From the IMG/VR virus record IMGVR_UViG_3300009151_006187, positions 1 through 25,712 of that record: a stretch of DNA of 25,712 bases, one strand, 5' to 3'. This stretch comes from a virus. The notes beneath the pieces are model-generated. The model saw only the letters and a list, made by a program, of their open reading frames with translations, was not told the DNA's origin and searched no databases. Shown here one piece after another: positions 2,135 to 23,303 of the stretch. Made by a program: the position numbers and the translations under genes. Position 1 is the first letter of the stretch. The number at the start of each line of letters is the position of its first letter.

Positions 2135-2458
2135 TCAATAGTCGGGCTTAACACTTTCTATAATATTGCCCGTTAGCAATTTGAATAACATTTCAAACTC
2201 TGCCGTTACAAACTCGATATCAACAGGTTTATTCTCTATAACTTGATTGTGTACATTCTTAACAAATCGCAGTTTATAGTTGCCTATGCCAATGTGTTCT
2301 GCAAGAAATGCCACAAGGTGTGTACATGTACTATGGTACTGTTGATTGGTAATTGTAATTGTATGCGGACCTTTAGATGCGACGATCTGCTGAGTGGATC
2401 TGCGAGTTGGTGCATTGTTATATACTGCGGTCTGGTAGGTGGTATAAGTTTTAGTCAT
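2135..2458 (-). CDS. hypothetical protein, 107 residues
   Basis: The ATG at 2458 overlaps the stop of the CCA-adding enzyme gene by ATGA, so the two are probably translationally coupled. The product is a small mixed alpha/beta protein with a His- and Thr-rich middle (TNQQYHSTCTHLVAFL) and an acidic C-terminal helix (EFEMLFKLLTGNIIESV). No motif is recognised. Its position behind the tRNA nucleotidyltransferase is the only hint about its job. Confidence 0.6.
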   Translation of the reverse strand: MTKTYTTYQTAVYNNAPTRRSTQQIVASKGPHTITITNQQYHSTCTHLVAFLAEHIGIGNYKLRFVKNVHNQVIENKPVDIEFVTAEFEMLFKLLTGNIIESVKPDY

Positions 2459-3627
2459 ACCACCACCAGGGCCATCAGTTCTTCTTTAGTAGCAACATAG
2501 CCACTGTCTGCCCAAGCATCTTTCAGCTGTCGCAGAACGTCCCCCATTGCTTTACCTTGCTTCATACCAACCGCAAACAGATCTTCCCCCGTTACCGGGA
2601 ACGGATCAAATTCCCAATGCACAAGAGCATTTTGGCTCCATTCATCGCGTTTTTCAAATGCAGCAAGTTCTGCAACCCATTTACGAGGTGCACCATCTAC
2701 TGCAATCAGACGACGCAGATCGTGTCGTTTAGCATATGGTCCTTTGATATGATTACACAGCCACAGTGCATGGTCACGTTCACTACTGCTCCATTTCAAA
2801 TTAGCCGATGCCTTTTCAACAACAGTGTGGCGGAGATTCATCCATGCTGCCATTACAACTTCGGGATCTTGCGACCATTGCAGCAGTTCATTGATAAGGT
2901 CTGGCATATCCGGCGCACGTACAGCACCTTCAATTGAAATGTATGGCCACATGCCAATGTCAGACATCACACGAAATAGTGCAGAACCGCGAGGATGAAT
3001 AATGATACGTTTCAGTTCGCTCCATACACGCTCGCGACTGATTTTTTCCAGTCCTTCGAAGTTGTCCAAGATAGCTTGCCATGCAGCAGGATCAATGTTA
3101 TCTTGCTTGCCAAATCGTGCTTGAAAACGGAACCAGCGCAGGATGCGCAGGTAGTCTTCCTTAACACGAGCATCTGCATCGCCAACAAAGCGAACAATCT
3201 GATTACGCAGATCCTCTTGTCCACCAAACGGATCAATCAGCACACCGTCAAAGGTCATTGACATGGCATTGAACGTAAAGTCTCGGCGACTCAGATCATC
3301 CATCCAATTGCGAGTGTATGCAACAGTTGCATGACGCCCATCGTGATTAGTTTCTGTACGCAGACTGGTGATTTCGTAGCCAACATGGTCAATTACAACA
3401 GTAATCGTGCCGTGTTGCAGACCAGTTTCTGCATACTTGTAGCCATTTGTTGTGTAGATTTCCAGTTGTTCAGTGGGATCTGCATCAGTGCAAAAGTCCA
3501 GATCCTTGGGATCTTCGCCTGCAACGATATCACGCACTGCACCGCCTACTAGGCGGATATCAAATCCACGAGCTTGAAAAGCTGCCCGCAGTGTACGGAG
3601 TTCTTCTGTGATATACTTGTTGAACAT
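2455..3627 (-). CDS. cca: CCA-adding enzyme / tRNA nucleotidyltransferase
   Basis: The enzyme adds or repairs the 3' CCA of tRNAs using CTP and ATP. Counting from ATG 3627 (390 residues), it has the class II nucleotidyltransferase signature: GGAVRD at 28-33, the metal-binding DLD at 42-44, and RRDFTFNAM at 114-122, which is the ERRDFTxNAM block that selects nucleotides. RILRWFRFQARFG follows at 161-173 in the neck. The length is normal for the bacterial type. The frame stays open to 3681, but translation from there would read through a 14-bp hairpin and add an unlikely tail. At 3627 there is an AGG six bases upstream. The gene lies behind the WYL_2-like gene and is coupled to the 107-residue orphan by ATGA. 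It would also mature tmRNA or host tRNAs during infection. Confidence 0.9.
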   Translation of the reverse strand: MFNKYITEELRTLRAAFQARGFDIRLVGGAVRDIVAGEDPKDLDFCTDADPTEQLEIYTTNGYKYAETGLQHGTITVVIDHVGYEITSLRTETNHDGRHATVAYTRNWMDDLSRRDFTFNAMSMTFDGVLIDPFGGQEDLRNQIVRFVGDADARVKEDYLRILRWFRFQARFGKQDNIDPAAWQAILDNFEGLEKISRERVWSELKRIIIHPRGSALFRVMSDIGMWPYISIEGAVRAPDMPDLINELLQWSQDPEVVMAAWMNLRHTVVEKASANLKWSSSERDHALWLCNHIKGPYAKRHDLRRLIAVDGAPRKWVAELAAFEKRDEWSQNALVHWEFDPFPVTGEDLFAVGMKQGKAMGDVLRQLKDAWADSGYVATKEELMALVVV

Positions 3628-3631
3628 GTGG

Positions 3632-3677
3632 CACCTGTTGCTGTTGTTTGTGCATAATAACATAACAGCAACAGGTG
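3632..3677 (-). promoter_or_regulatory. 14-bp hairpin that covers the cca ribosome binding site
   Basis: CACCTGTTGCTGTT (3677-3664 read on the minus strand) is perfectly complementary to AACAGCAACAGGTG (3645-3632), with an 18-base loop between them. The last bases of the downstream arm, AGGTG, form the only Shine-Dalgarno of cca, whose ATG begins five bases later. In RNA the stem would hide that site. No U-tract follows, so control of translation or an mRNA-processing site is more likely than simple termination. Confidence 0.6.
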
Positions 3678-3687
3678 TCAATAGGTA

Positions 3688-5400: not shown

Positions 5401-6435
5401 ATGGCGAGAAAATTTGTGTCTCGTGCAACGGCTGTACATCGTATCGCCATGCCGCCAAGAGTCGTCATACCCACCGAAGAACAAATTCAAAATAAAATAA
5501 TTGCTGCCAGTGTACAGCAAGAAGCAATAACTGCTGTTGTACCAGAGCCAGTTATAGAGCCAATAGCTGAACCGGAACCGGAACCAGTTATAGAGCCAGA
5601 GCCAATAGCTGAGCCAGAACCGGAACCAGTTATAGAACCAGAGCCAATAGCTGAGCCAGAACCGGAACCAGTTATAGAACCAGAGCCAATAGCTGAGCCA
5701 GAGCCAATAGCTGAACCGGAACCGGAACCAGTTATAGAACCAGAACCAATCGCTGAACCAGAACCTGCTGATAAAAAGTATACCATAGCAATATTGTTTA
5801 GAGGTACGATTAGAGGTGATGTGAATACTGTTATAGAATTCATACAGAACAGTATAGACGAATTAAGAGCAAATAATCACATAGTGCATGCATATCTTGC
5901 AACATGGGGAACTACACACGATCCTAAGATCAGTGCGTTACTGTCTGCTATAAAATTTGAAAACGTTATTTTACAAACTGCACCGGCATTAGAACAAATT
6001 CAAAGATTTGTTAAAAAATCTGCGATGGGATGCTATCCGATTAGTAATATGTACCGCATGTATTACCAAACAAAAACTGCGTTGGATGTAATAACAAGTG
6101 CATACAATTATGATTACATTATTCACAGTAGAACAGATGTCAAAGTAACATTTGGAGAACATCTTTCAAACTGGCTTGTAAAAGGATATTATACAAGTCC
6201 ACCAAGCGGTGCACCGTGGTTATGTGATTGGGTAGGTGCAGCAGAGTCCAAAATTATGAAAGATGCATGGGATTACGGCACACTTGAACGACTAGGGCAA
6301 CTGCTAGACGACAAACATGTACCAGAACATATATTCATAGACCTTATGTCTGCACATAGTATACAGCACAGAACTGCACCTGTCGCAAGTATCTTTCTCG
6401 ATCCACACCGAGTAGAGTCCGGCGACAGGTTATAA
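5401..6435 (+). CDS. glycosyltransferase-like protein with N-terminal Glu-Pro repeat
   Basis: The 344-residue protein has three parts. A basic N-terminus (residues 1-45) is followed by a Glu/Pro tandem repeat (about 46-123) and a globular domain from [11 protein letters not shown] (about 128) to the end. The globular part resembles WavE-like or other GT-A-type glycosyltransferases: a beta-strand start, a central [13 protein letters not shown] (around 237-250) in the place of a DxD metal site, then a [14 protein letters not shown] block. The acceptor is unknown. The repeat is a likely stiff linker that holds the enzyme away from a surface or partner. It has its own late-like motif and AGG site at ATG 5401, and its stop lies one base from the convergent topoisomerase stop. 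Having no operon partner, it looks like an inserted accessory gene. Confidence 0.62.
5569..5754 (+). repeat. 42-bp in-frame tandem repeat coding for a Glu-Pro linker
   Basis: Four near-identical 42-bp units (5569-5610, 5611-5652, 5653-5694, 5713-5754) each encode [14 protein letters not shown]. An 18-bp partial unit, EPEPIA, sits at 5695-5712. Differences are mostly silent (gag/gaa, cca/ccg), which suggests duplication by slippage or recombination with copy number free to vary. The Gly-Ser-rich reading on the opposite strand is a by-product. Confidence 0.95.
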
Positions 6436-6436
6436 A

Positions 6437-8314
6437 TTAAGTATCTAATGCAATCCACTCTTTGCGAGCATCTGCGCCTTTGGGATCAAATATCAGTTTC
6501 AATGCAGCACTGAGATTGCCGTCATCTGTTAGTGGTACCAGTTTGGGCTTAACCAAACTGTGTCGCCAATCTGCTTCTTCCAAGCTACCAAGACCTTTTG
6601 CGCGAGTTGGCTTGGGACAGTTCTTCCAATCTTTAGCATCATACAAGTGGTAGTCGTCTGCATACCAATAATAGCGTGCTTTGCCTTTCTCTTGAATAAT
6701 GAACGGCGTTTGAAACGCATAGAAGAACGGTTCCTGCTGTGCATCAAACAGCTCAGGCCAGTGTAAATAGAAGAAATTTACCAACAATGCTGTGATGTTA
6801 GCGCCGTCGGGATCTTGGTCCGCAGCTAGATATACTTTCCCGTATCTCAAGTCTTTTCGCACAGCTTTTTGCCCTAACGCACAGCCCACACTGGTCATCA
6901 AGTCCATAAGGATTTGACTATCTAACAATGTCTTGGGTGCTTCACCACGCACGTTGAGAATTTTACCACGCAGCGGCAGCGCACCGTGTATTTCAGGATC
7001 TCTAACAGCACTGACCATAGTCTTGGCACTGTCGCCTTCTGTGATAAGAAGAATACATTTTGTGCGATCCTTGCCATTTGCATCAAGCAGCTTAGGTACT
7101 TTGGTACGCATCATTTTGCGTCCAGCTTTGGCTAGCTCTGCATCGTCCTTTTTCTGTGTACGAGCAGCACAGCGAGCATAGATTTCATCAATCCATTCTT
7201 TATTCAGCTTGATGATGTTTTTGAATGTGGTATCATCATCCAGTGTTTTGCGAATATACGCATCAACACCGTCGTTAATCAGTCGTGTTTTACTTTGACT
7301 GTCAAAGTTAGGTGCATGCATCACTGTTACGTTGTAGATAAGCAAGCCATCTGCAATGTCACTGCGGTTGGGTGTAAGTCCGCGACGTTTGCTTTCACGT
7401 TCCAAGCTTTTGACTAGTCCGCTGTAAAACAGTCGCTTAAACGTATCAATATGCTGCCCGCCATTAAACGCAGGAATGTCGTTGACAGTGGTATGTAGAT
7501 ACTCGCCATCTTCTGCAAAGTTAGGTACTAGATAGTAGCTGCTGTTGAAGTTGGTGTCTTTTACGTTGATTTCAATTACACGGCGTTCATCAAAGAACGT
7601 TTTAACCACAGTGGGTTTGACATTTACTTTTTCGCTGTTGAAGTAAAACTTAATCTTGGGATGGTTTGCAGCAATTTCTGTAATGCGTGCTTTGACAAAT
7701 GCCAACGGTAAGTTGATCTTTTTGAACACGCTTTTGCTAAGCTTGAACGTTACAGTGGTTCCGCTTTTGGCTGCGCTTTTGACAATCTTGGGTTCGCGTA
7801 TATCCAGTTCGTCAAATGCAGCATTGCCTTCGTTGAAGGTCTGCTGGAATCGTTGGCCGTCTCGGATAATGTCAATGGTAAAGTATTCACTGCAACTTAC
7901 AACAGTGCTGGCGCCGATGCCGTTGGTACCACGAACTTCTTCGCGCACACCAAAGTTACGACCTGCACGGGCCTGTGTAAGTGCCAGTGTTGCTTTGTGC
8001 ATACGTTCGCTTTCATCCCAATCAATGGGAATACCGCGTCCGTCATCTGCAACTGTAAATTCCATTGTCTTGACATCGTAGCCAACATCAACTCTGCTAC
8101 CGTGACCATGTCCGATAACTTCATCTAATGCGTTGTCTAATATCTCTCGGAATGCACAATAAACAGCAGGAGTCCACGTCATCTCTACTGGCTTTAGTGC
8201 TTTACCATCCCAATTGACAATGGTTTGGGTATGAGGGCTGCGACTGCCCAAATACATTTCTGTGCGCAACCTATGGTGCTGATAGTCTGTGAGTTTTTGA
8301 ATGTTTTCTGTCAT
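6437..8314 (-). CDS. 39: DNA topoisomerase II, ATPase plus TOPRIM subunit (T4 gp39/60-like)
   Basis: The 625-residue protein is a full GyrB/ParE-type subunit. The GHKL ATPase motifs are EILDNALDE (57-65), DDGRGIP (90-96) and GTNGIGAS (129-136). The transducer QTK-like loop is QSK (340-342), with Lys342 as the gamma-phosphate contact. The TOPRIM acidic sites are TEGDSA (425-430) and DQDPDG (499-504), in place of the usual DxDxDG. In T4 this subunit is split into gp39 and gp60; here it is one chain. It partners the A-type subunit at 3939-5294 but is separated from it by the inserted plus-strand glycosyltransferase-like gene. No Shine-Dalgarno is visible, and a sigma-70-like promoter lies so close that the mRNA may be leaderless. 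It ends one base from the convergent gene. Confidence 0.94.
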   Translation of the reverse strand: MTENIQKLTDYQHHRLRTEMYLGSRSPHTQTIVNWDGKALKPVEMTWTPAVYCAFREILDNALDEVIGHGHGSRVDVGYDVKTMEFTVADDGRGIPIDWDESERMHKATLALTQARAGRNFGVREEVRGTNGIGASTVVSCSEYFTIDIIRDGQRFQQTFNEGNAAFDELDIREPKIVKSAAKSGTTVTFKLSKSVFKKINLPLAFVKARITEIAANHPKIKFYFNSEKVNVKPTVVKTFFDERRVIEINVKDTNFNSSYYLVPNFAEDGEYLHTTVNDIPAFNGGQHIDTFKRLFYSGLVKSLERESKRRGLTPNRSDIADGLLIYNVTVMHAPNFDSQSKTRLINDGVDAYIRKTLDDDTTFKNIIKLNKEWIDEIYARCAARTQKKDDAELAKAGRKMMRTKVPKLLDANGKDRTKCILLITEGDSAKTMVSAVRDPEIHGALPLRGKILNVRGEAPKTLLDSQILMDLMTSVGCALGQKAVRKDLRYGKVYLAADQDPDGANITALLVNFFYLHWPELFDAQQEPFFYAFQTPFIIQEKGKARYYWYADDYHLYDAKDWKNCPKPTRAKGLGSLEEADWRHSLVKPKLVPLTDDGNLSAALKLIFDPKGADARKEWIALDT

Positions 8315-8494: not shown

Positions 8495-8631
8495 TATAAT
8501 AATATATCTTGACTGTATTTGTATGTTTACTGTCTTGATTGGTAGTCTTTAGTTAGTACATGTTATCAGTATAGGTTAGTAGTAAGCGGCAGTTTGATTC
8601 TGTTTCCAAGTCCAAACTGCCAAAAACTCAT

Positions 8632-8673
8632 TTACGCTGCGAGAGCGTAAGAAGGTGCAGAATTTTCATTTGC
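8632..8673 (-). other. tmRNA tag reading frame, ANENSAPSYALAA
   Basis: The resume codon GCA (8673-8671) is preceded by TAGAT, close to the TAGTC before the E. coli resume codon. The frame reads ANENSAPSYALAA and ends in TAA. The A-N-[DE]-N start and ALAA end match tmRNA tags of alphaproteobacterial type; the terminal LAA is the signal seen by ClpXP-type proteases. Confidence 0.93.
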
Positions 8674-8758
8674 ATCTATAGTTTTCTTCGCGATAACGGT
8701 GCTTAGATCCCGGTGACTCCATCCTGCCTAGTTCGCCTGTCGATCCTATTTCGACCCC

Positions 8759-8824
8759 AGCAAAGATACAGATTTTGCCAATCATTTATTCCCTTTTTCC
8801 TCACAAAAAAAGAATCTGTATCTG
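8759..8824 (-). other. intervening segment removed from the permuted tmRNA
   Basis: These 66 bases join the CCA end of the acceptor piece to the 5' end of the coding piece. They begin and end with a perfect 11-bp inverted repeat (8813-8823 and 8764-8774, AGATACAGATT and its complement). This would stack on the acceptor stem and bring both processing sites together. The 38-base loop is A/T-rich and includes a run of seven T. Confidence 0.8.
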
Positions 8825-8891
8825 TGGTGGAGCCGTCGGGTACCGCCCCCGAGTCCAGAACGTGTTCAGTGAATATCAACATCACAAGTTA

Positions 8892-8920
8892 TTTATAGAC
8901 TACTTTGTTGATCTTGTCAA
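8892..8920 (-). promoter_or_regulatory. strong sigma-70-type promoter of the tmRNA
   Basis: TTGACA (8920-8915), a 17-base spacer and TATAAA (8897-8892) form a near-perfect housekeeping promoter with start near 8885, giving an acceptor piece of about 61 bases. The same -10 region extends to TATAAATA (8897-8890), which is also the T4 late consensus. The gene could therefore be read by host polymerase early and by the phage late sigma later. Confidence 0.75.
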
Positions 8921-8966
8921 GCCTATGTTAGTAAATTGTTACATTAGGACTGTTAAATACAGTATC

Positions 8967-21839: not shown

Positions 21840-23303
21840 TTATCCCAACCATGAATCATTTGGCAATGATCCTTCTAATTTTTTATCGTAGTTTTTCAAT
21901 GCTTTTTCTGTCAACCACGACTGTACATCTATATTCTGTAGTTCTTTAATGAGACTGTTGACTTCTTTAATTCGGCGTATACGGGTATTGAGATCATTAT
22001 CTCGGTATTTCCAGTCTATATTGCTATGGTAGTACTCTAATTCATCTTCAATCAGTGGGAATAGCGGCTGACTGCGATGCAACATTAGCGTATTGCCAAA
22101 ACTGAACCTTGTGTTTTTTTGCCAGCCCAGTTTGAAAATATGCCTGATACAAGCTAGAGTATGCTGATGGTCAGCTTCTGTTTCAGTGGGATACCCTACA
22201 ATCATCAACAACACATGCGGTATATCATAGTTGTTTAGCATCGCCAAACAATGCCACATGTCATCGTCGGTGAACTTTTTACCCATGTGGTATCGTATAT
22301 CCTGACTGAAACTTTCCAGTCCGATTTCAAGCATGGAGCAGCCACTGGCTTTCATGCTTTGATAATCTTCCTCGGGGCTTTGATGTTTAGGACGTATGAT
22401 CCATTGACTTACCCAACTGAAATCACTATTGGTTTGTCTATAGTTGATCAACGACTTCATTAAATTTCTAAATGCTTTCATGCTGCCGTTAATCAAGCTG
22501 TCTGTGAACAGGAATGTTTTTCTGTCGTATTTTTCTTTTATCTCGATAATTTCTTGTGCAATGTATTCACCATCTCTGAAATAATAGTCAGGCCATATCC
22601 TGTATACATTGCAAAATGTACAACGTTTAACACAGCCTCTACTGCCTGTAATATATACAGGATGCGGATGACCTTCATTTTGATATTCAGACCAATCTAT
22701 ATCATCATAGTTTGGTATCATGACACTGTTGAGGTCAGTGACTTGGTTGGGATCTAATGAGTTGATACCTTTACCAGTAAAGTTGCCTTTTAAGTAATCG
22801 ATAATGCTGGCTTCACCGTCGCCGTAAATGTAATCATCACAGTAGCCCAGTTCTTGAAACACATGTATACCGTATTCAATGGCTGCGCCGCCCCATAGTA
22901 TTCGTATGTGAGGACAATGAATTTTAAGCAGCACTCCCAGTTTGGCTGCAACTGCCACGCTGTGTGCAGACAACAAACTCATACCAATGATACGGGGATT
23001 TTTTTGTTTTATAAACTCAATCCAGTCTAAGAACACATACTCCAGTGTGTTGTAGAATTTGACAAAGTCCGGATGTAGCTCTGGATGATCATGTTCCAAT
23101 GCAAAAATGTAATCATCTTCAAAATAGTAATTTTGTAAATTGTGTTGTTTTGCTGCATTGAACAGCTTCACATTGAAGTCTACAACTTCGCAGGTCATGC
23201 CGTGGGCTTCGATATGCGATTTTAACACTGCTGGACCAACTGTGGGTGCATCGGGATTTATCTTTGGGATAATGCCTATCAGTATATCTAGCTGTGCGGT
23301 CAT
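21840..23303 (-). CDS. B12-binding-type radical SAM protein
   Basis: The 487-residue protein has an N-terminal Rossmann-like, cobalamin-type domain (about 1-175: LIGIIPKINPDAPTVGPAVL, then IIGMSLLSAHS and ILWGGAAIEYG). A radical SAM core follows from about 215. The 4Fe-4S site is Cys224, Cys228 and Cys231 in SRGCVKRCTFCNV, followed by the core strands LFTDSLINGS, GCSMLEIGLES and HVLLMIVGYPTETE. The DxHxxG cobalamin-lower-ligand motif is not seen, as in many members. Such enzymes methylate or rearrange unreactive carbon, but the substrate cannot be read here. A promoter with perfect TATAAT precedes it, with no clear Shine-Dalgarno. It is an unusual phage enzyme and likely host-derived. Confidence 0.85.
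   Translation of the reverse strand: MTAQLDILIGIIPKINPDAPTVGPAVLKSHIEAHGMTCEVVDFNVKLFNAAKQHNLQNYYFEDDYIFALEHDHPELHPDFVKFYNTLEYVFLDWIEFIKQKNPRIIGMSLLSAHSVAVAAKLGVLLKIHCPHIRILWGGAAIEYGIHVFQELGYCDDYIYGDGEASIIDYLKGNFTGKGINSLDPNQVTDLNSVMIPNYDDIDWSEYQNEGHPHPVYITGSRGCVKRCTFCNVYRIWPDYYFRDGEYIAQEIIEIKEKYDRKTFLFTDSLINGSMKAFRNLMKSLINYRQTNSDFSWVSQWIIRPKHQSPEEDYQSMKASGCSMLEIGLESFSQDIRYHMGKKFTDDDMWHCLAMLNNYDIPHVLLMIVGYPTETEADHQHTLACIRHIFKLGWQKNTRFSFGNTLMLHRSQPLFPLIEDELEYYHSNIDWKYRDNDLNTRIRRIKEVNSLIKELQNIDVQSWLTEKALKNYDKKLEGSLPNDSWLG

Follow-up and report, generated by a model that had tools for sequence, protein, structure and literature searches.

A permuted two-piece tmRNA gene with its own tag in a DNA fragment assigned to a lineage of T4-like jumbo phages

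The tmRNAs of phages, including those of huge and aquatic phages, are already known; this analysis adds a gene with a new tag and a ClpX gene in the same phage population. In the portion of PMC9004378 available to us, tmRNA is reported in 402 of 18,146 phage genomes and the two-piece form in 53 of 133 unique phage tmRNA structures, 50 of these being marine or aquatic. The same source describes OM43 phage Melnitz and the pelagimyophages, aquatic myophages with an alphaproteobacterial-type two-piece tmRNA. The phage described here resembles them in these respects but belongs to a separate, jumbo lineage, and no glutamine riboswitch was reported by Rfam within the DNA analyzed. Huge phages (over 200 kb) also carry tmRNA, together with SmpB (PMC7162821, in the part available). 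In contrast, SmpB (PF01668) was found in 0 of 10 records related to ours, several of which are fragments, in a search that recovered it from 10 of 14 known genomes used as a positive control. The available part of the huge-phage paper makes no mention of ClpX or ClpP. Sinorhizobium jumbo phage AP-J-162, a relative of Atu_ph07, has one tmRNA and a ClpX gene adjoining those of IF-3 and topoisomerase, and the accessible text of its description (PMC11242549) draws no link between tmRNA and ClpX and does not discuss the tag-contact loop of ClpX. In the PMC literature searched, so far as its texts were accessible, we found neither a connection between phage tmRNA and phage ClpX nor an earlier description of a uniform change in the ClpX loop accompanying a clade-wide tmRNA. 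Compared with the alphaproteobacterial two-piece tmRNA (RF01849 and RF04321), the gene described here has the same permuted order, G3-U70 pair, encoded CCA and AN[DE]N...LAA tag but differs in a glutamate at tag position 3, a SAPSY middle, a shorter 3' part and lower scores.

The DNA analyzed, referred to hereafter as the window, is the whole of the 25,712-base IMG/VR virus record IMGVR_UViG_3300009151_006187. It encodes matches to phage protein families (PHROG) for ribonucleotide reductase subunits, an exonuclease and a tail-type protein, and its topoisomerase is 55% identical to that of Sinorhizobium phage Phosso and 53% identical to that of Agrobacterium phage Atu_ph07. A protein scan of IMG/VR yielded 55 relatives. 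Contigs of the same phage in IMG/VR matched the window with DNA identities of 99.8% over 7.9 kb, 99.99% over 8.5 kb and 99.77% over 7.4 kb, while aligned pieces of a sister record of 518,643 bases (G001, the sister) were 76-81% identical to it. From these near-identical contigs, the size of the sister and the phage-type proteins, we assign the window to the genome of a jumbo phage, of which it is a fragment. The comparisons place it in a lineage of T4-like jumbo phages that are relatives of Atu_ph07 and Phosso and appear tied to alphaproteobacteria.

As shown in Table 1, the window carries a complete permuted two-piece tmRNA gene of alphaproteobacterial type on its minus strand. ARAGORN detected a permuted tmRNA at 8541-8918 (-) with the tag ANENSAPSYALAA. 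The Rfam family alpha_tmRNA (RF01849) matched 8588-8924 (-) with 120.4 bits (E 1.2e-32; gathering score 50) and tmRNA_permuted (RF04321) matched 8632-8886 (-) with 111.3 bits. The permuted order was confirmed by the positions of the two ends, in that CCA ends at 8825 and GGGGTCG begins at 8758, downstream on the minus strand. All seven pairs of the acceptor stem are formed and the ACCA end is encoded. A preliminary description of this DNA had placed a tag with an AN[DE]N start, an ALAA end and a SAPSY middle at 8632-8673; the codons of the tag, GCA AAT GAA AAT TCT GCA CCT TCT TAC GCT CTC GCA GCG TAA, fill exactly these coordinates on the minus strand, which that description had not named. The gene is shortened 3' of the tag, and RF01849 scores within the phage clade were 65-120 bits, compared to about 195-313 bits for the bacterial matches listed.

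Table 1. Features of the tmRNA gene and of selected neighboring genes in the 25,712-base window
Feature	Position	Strand	Basis or remark
Permuted tmRNA gene, extent of the Rfam model including the 5' flank	8588..8924	-	RF01849, RF04321
Promoter-like TTGACA-17-TATAAATA	8920-8890	-	Consensus match, putative
Acceptor piece: D-side helix, T arm, acceptor 3' strand CGGCTCC (8835-8829), discriminator A and encoded CCA (8828-8825)	8825..8886	-	Rfam, sequence
Intervening segment, 66 nt, with 11-bp closing stem AGATACAGATT/AATCTGTATCT, predicted to be excised	8759..8824	-	
Coding piece; 5' start GGGGTCG pairing with acceptor strand, G3-U70 retained	8588..8758	-	
Tag frame ANENSAPSYALAA and TAA; resume codon GCA at 8673-8671	8673 to 8632	-	ARAGORN, sequence, clade-tag comparison
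Hairpin TTACGC-TCTCGCA-GCGTAA containing the stop codon of the tag	8632..8650	-	
3' hairpin of coding piece, loop GGAAACAGAA	8588..8621	-	Same motif in relatives
Type II topoisomerase large subunit	6437..8314	-	Pfam; downstream neighbor of tmRNA, same strand; synteny in relatives
Phosphoesterase gene, divergent	from 8955		Upstream flank of tmRNA gene
tRNA nucleotidyltransferase (CCA-adding) like protein	2455..3681	-	Pfam PolyA_pol 3.2e-30

RF04321 scored above its cut-off in all 14 larger relatives and in 22 of the 41 smaller IMG/VR relatives, many of which are short fragments, as well as in Phosso. The 44 other records scanned (the 41 smaller relatives, Phosso, Brevundimonas phage Bajun and Atu_ph07) gave a match in 26, above the cut-off in 24; Bajun had a match and Atu_ph07 had none. 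Where ARAGORN detected the tmRNA in IMG/VR relatives, it lay upstream of the topoisomerase gene on the same strand. When the acceptor stem was compared across 25 loci, pairs 4-7 were found to covary, pair 5 for example being C-G, G-C, A-U, U-A or a wobble, and G3-U70, which is an alanine identity element, was kept in 24 loci. The search for this stem favored G-U at pair 3, which makes the covariation of pairs 4-7 the less biased evidence. In L070, the single locus without G3-U70, the end departs from plain ACCA; near base 1560 of that locus AGAA follows the acceptor strand, and CCA may not be encoded there. In 14 of the 19 loci in which the intervening segment could be assessed, a stem of 9 bp or more closes it, and the sequences of these stems differ. 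The segment measured only 2-5 nt in six further loci (L065, L066, L067, L072, L125 and L128), in which the two pieces are almost adjacent, and 410 nt in Phosso (L108).

A tag of the AN[DE]N type occurred in the same register in 35 of the 39 tmRNA loci of the phage clade, giving 21 distinct tags; the other four loci yielded no tag with the pattern used. The tag frames of the window and the sister differ at five bases, namely two silent AAT/AAC changes, GAA/GAT (glutamate to aspartate) and TCT/GTT (two bases, serine to valine). Taken together, the register shared by the clade, these differences and the hairpin around the stop codon indicate that GCA at 8673 is the resume codon. The preliminary description had made the same assignment, and the frame correction that would have refuted it was not borne out. 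The 73 bases at 8587-8659, which reach from mid-tag to the 3' hairpin, are identical in the window and the sister (L062), with surroundings about 76-81% identical; this identity might reflect either strong constraint or recent exchange.

The tag had also been called phage-specific, and this holds in the collections searched (viral_contigs, genome_contigs and 140 alphaproteobacterial tags). The pattern AN[DE]NSAPSYALAA gave two matches in viral_contigs, both from the same phage as the window (99.8% and 99.99% DNA identity). The looser pattern AN[DE]NxAPxYALAA was present at 11 loci of genome_contigs, as ANDNRAPAYALAA in nine (eight with Rhodobacterales-type titles and one titled 'bacterium') and as ANDNFAPEYALAA in two (Proteobacteria and Asticcacaulis). 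The exact tag was absent among these 11 loci and from all 140 sampled alphaproteobacterial tags. For this sample, 190 genomes of the class were drawn evenly, 176 had a match and 150 of these were read; eight loci from the tag-pattern search were added and are the non-random part of the 157 bacterial loci, which yielded 140 tags (90 distinct), 17 loci having no tag by the pattern. The nearest tag to that of the window was ANDNVAPSYALAA of the sister, and the nearest bacterial tags, from the Rhodobacterales and Asticcacaulis groups, were three edits away. Position 3 of the bacterial tags (n = 140) was D in 139, N in one and E in none; within the phage clade, E at this position was found only in the phage of the window. 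None of the 21 distinct phage tags was shared with the 90 distinct bacterial tags. Median tag length was 14 residues in phages and 12 among distinct bacterial tags, and an LAA end was present in 18 of 21 distinct phage tags compared to 50 of 90 bacterial tags; these contrasts are descriptive, since the phages are related and do not count as independent cases.

In a tree of 69 tmRNAs (19 from the phage clade, Bajun and 49 bacterial), the 19 phage rows formed one side of a branch with support of 100/98. This branch was recovered in 100% of 200 bootstrap trees, in a bootstrap that had not settled (correlation 0.966), and lay near a Proteobacteria/Asticcacaulis pair with support of 80/88. The 49 bacterial rows are a subset, 21 of the 157 bacterial loci having failed piece extraction, and the tree also omits some phage loci that gave no readable tag or extraction. 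Because the phage rows form a single clade, the tag belongs to the phage lineage, in which it evolved, and is not a recent host copy; it names no host. The SAPSY middle and the glutamate at position 3 most likely reflect divergence within an old phage lineage and not the copying of a host tag. The expectation of the preliminary description that an exact match would name the host or settle the question of mimicry was thus not upheld, the lineage being old and the nearest bacterial tags being three edits off and in two groups. Naming a host from the looser matches was also dropped as too weak, since nine of the 11 were Rhodobacterales-type (one titled 'bacterium'), two were Proteobacteria or Asticcacaulis and none was exact, and the tree placed the phage branch near the latter pair with support of only 80/88. 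Tag identity does not decide whether the tag mimics or alters host degradation. The suggestion in the preliminary description of ClpXP and SspB contacts with the tag is reasonable; a literature search on Caulobacter SspB gave no result.

Some of the same phages encode the unfoldase ClpX. In the annotation of Atu_ph07 a Clp ATPase lies beside the topoisomerase, and a ClpX-sized match (417-431 aa) was found in eight of 11 records searched (G001, G002, G005, G006, G007, G008, Phosso and Atu_ph07), with no match in G003, G004 or Bajun. ClpP was found in four of these 11 records, which are the four larger than 450 kb. A second set of 24 records contained full-length ClpX in six and a partial ClpX in one. 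There is no clp gene in the 25,712-base window; the ClpX of this population is on another contig (G044, locus L046), which matches 7.4 kb of the window at 99.77% identity and encodes a ClpX of 417 aa. Placed by overlap, and assuming collinearity, this gene shares its strand with the tmRNA and lies approximately 21 kb downstream of it. The idea of tmRNA and ClpX as an obligatory module was rejected, as Atu_ph07 has ClpX with no tmRNA match and G003 and G004 have tmRNA with no ClpX match.

The ClpX of G044 aligned over its full length to E. coli ClpX (best PDB match 8e91_A, E 6.3e-143), with an asparagine opposite H230. The zinc domain, Walker A motif, GYVG pore loop and IGF loop are present in the ClpX of the window's population (L324) and of the clade. 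The loop containing this asparagine read GGRKNP in all 14 readable clade copies (two of them identical proteins) and GGRKHP in all 26 alphaproteobacterial rows (among which one protein appears twice), three of 29 bacterial loci having been dropped because they gave no full frame. The GYVG loop and R228 were kept in all 14 clade copies, the pore-2 threonine in 13 (serine in Atu_ph07) and the ClpP-docking IGF in 12 (FGF in Atu_ph07 and VGF in one contig). According to the available text of PMC7652416, residues Y153, V154, T199, V202, R228 and H230 of E. coli ClpX shape tag recognition, H230 contacts the ssrA end, and the H230A mutant has a KM for GFP-ssrA of 140-240 uM compared to 1.3 uM, values from constrained fits. 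The same text reports that ssrA-tagged proteins are not degraded by human ClpXP, in which leucine occupies the positions of T199 and H230, and that a YALAA end suffices to target GFP to ClpXP of E. coli. On this basis ClpXP should be able to degrade proteins carrying the phage tag. Substitution of the histidine by asparagine is milder than substitution by alanine, and its effect on tag reading is not predictable.

ClpX was found in 69 phage records at E 1e-30, several short records among which may be bacterial carry-over. Outside the clade, Bacillus phage G, Prevotella phage Lak-B5 and uncultured phage LR756511.1 are similar in having a tmRNA above cut-off and ClpX in one genome, but they are unrelated phages with the standard-form tmRNA family (RF00023) and an intact RKH loop. 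Pseudomonas phage 30-3, also among the four outside phages checked for both features, had neither a tmRNA match nor the RKH loop. As a lead from these few, hand-chosen phages, the combination of tmRNA and ClpX seems to recur in unrelated huge phages, with RKN seen in this clade only. The phage G tag was read by ARAGORN as AKLNITNNELQVA, the end of which is not AA. An Acinetobacter phage record, which may be bacterial DNA, has a ClpX that keeps RKH and adjoins clpP.

The complete gene, the conserved register, the G3-U70 pair with its covarying stem and the clade-wide position upstream of topoisomerase argue that this is, with good probability, a working two-piece tmRNA inherited within a T4-like jumbo phage lineage. 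Set against this are the lack of strict linkage between tmRNA and ClpX across the clade, the divergence seen in the lower RF01849 scores and the shortened part after the tag. The RNA is most likely a phage trans-translation RNA that uses the SmpB and alanyl-tRNA synthetase of the host, possibly with a re-tuned unfoldase. Its transcript would start at the TTGACA-17-TATAAATA element, and removal of the 66-nt intervening segment would leave two RNA pieces. The RNA would be charged by host alanyl-tRNA synthetase and delivered by host SmpB to ribosomes arrested on broken mRNAs in infected cells, where tagging would add (A)ANENSAPSYALAA to nascent proteins. The YALAA end would direct the tagged products to ClpXP of the host or the phage for degradation, a step that the phage ClpX, joined by a phage ClpP in the largest relatives, would share or take over.

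A bolder form of this explanation, which extends the working tmRNA and is not an alternative to it, would have the phage tag matched to the phage RKN-loop ClpX such that tagged proteins escape or outcompete host control. The uniform loop difference between the clade and the alphaproteobacterial rows favors such a match, as do the contact of H230 with the ssrA end and the KM of H230A in E. coli (PMC7652416, in the text available). The RKH loop of phage G, Lak-B5 and LR756511.1 points in the same direction, since it implies that phage ClpX does not, as a rule, carry this change. However, the LAA end kept in most distinct clade tags should be readable by host ClpX too, Atu_ph07 has RKN with no tmRNA match, and most phage copies retain five of the six residues that contact the tag in E. 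coli; we regard the matched pair as a tentative proposal, possible but less likely than not. The same measure of doubt applies to a partly private tag-and-destroy pathway, consisting of the phage tmRNA, a phage ClpX with specificity changed by the histidine to asparagine substitution and ClpP in the largest genomes, with SmpB alone borrowed. The clade offers a pair that can be tested, namely a phage tag together with a phage unfoldase that differs consistently at one tag-touching residue, and this pair bears on whether phages tag proteins for their own protease or for that of the host. Phosso, a relative with a cultured host, carries tmRNA, ClpX and ClpP and infects Sinorhizobium meliloti.

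Other explanations do without a working phage-inherited tmRNA. If the RNA were a decoy that titrates host SmpB and blocks host trans-translation, a role suggested for mycobacteriophage DS6A in its tag-less form (PMC4131195 and PMC11915505, in the parts available), the failure to find SmpB in the 10 phage records would fit; a decoy would have no need of a tag frame, a stop hairpin or an alanine identity pair, all of which are kept intact here, and we consider it improbable. Recent capture of a host tmRNA, with the tag as host mimicry, is highly improbable given the single phage branch and the absence of all 21 distinct phage tags from the 90 distinct bacterial tags sampled, even though the tag is alphaproteobacterial in type and three edits from those of Rhodobacterales and Asticcacaulis. 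That the gene is a relic without function is hardly credible, because the acceptor stem covaries and the register, promoter and position are conserved; the shortened 3' part and the scores below those of bacterial tmRNA are what such a reading would explain.

The promoter-like element of the proposed working tmRNA was identified as the single match in the window to TTGACA-N15-18-TATAAATA. A generic sigma-70 scan did not return it, as that scan demands T at the sixth -10 position. Among 26 upstream stretches, a set to which Bajun and another copy of the phage of the window belong, TATAAATA was exact in 13, and the -35 hexamer matched in at least five of six positions in 21. In 240 kb of the sister TATAAATA was observed 18 times compared to 18.7 expected, so the motif alone is uninformative, and a T4-type late promoter was dropped on the same count. 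The combined TTGACA-N15-18-TATAAATA occurred only three times in this 240 kb, at the tmRNA, ahead of a tRNA array (about 490 bp from its first tRNA) and at a presumed nucleotidyltransferase-like gene, the name of which we assigned from its sequence. Given this rarity, we read TTGACA-17-TATAAATA as a putative ordinary strong sigma-70-like promoter. The elements before the array of 33 tRNA genes and the nucleotidyltransferase-like gene of the sister, at G001 L338:469 and L340:779, have spacings of N16/17.

Several other features of the window were recorded. The CCA-adding-like enzyme encoded at 2455-3681 might have a part in repair of the tmRNA 3' end. A tandem repeat of approximately 42 bases at 5556-5765 corresponds to a stretch rich in P, E, V, I and A in a 344-aa protein (5401-6435) that had no match in PHROG. 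A 487-aa protein (21840-23303, minus strand), also with no match in PHROG, contains CVKRCTFCNV, which we take to be a motif of the type found in radical SAM enzymes. The 24 main genes of the window end in TAA (15) or TGA (nine) and never in TAG. In the sister, TAG ends 12 of 217 ORFs in 240 kb, and there is a tRNA with anticodon CTA (L338:9519-9593); this tRNA and the absence of TAG from the window genes suggest amber suppression as a possibility.
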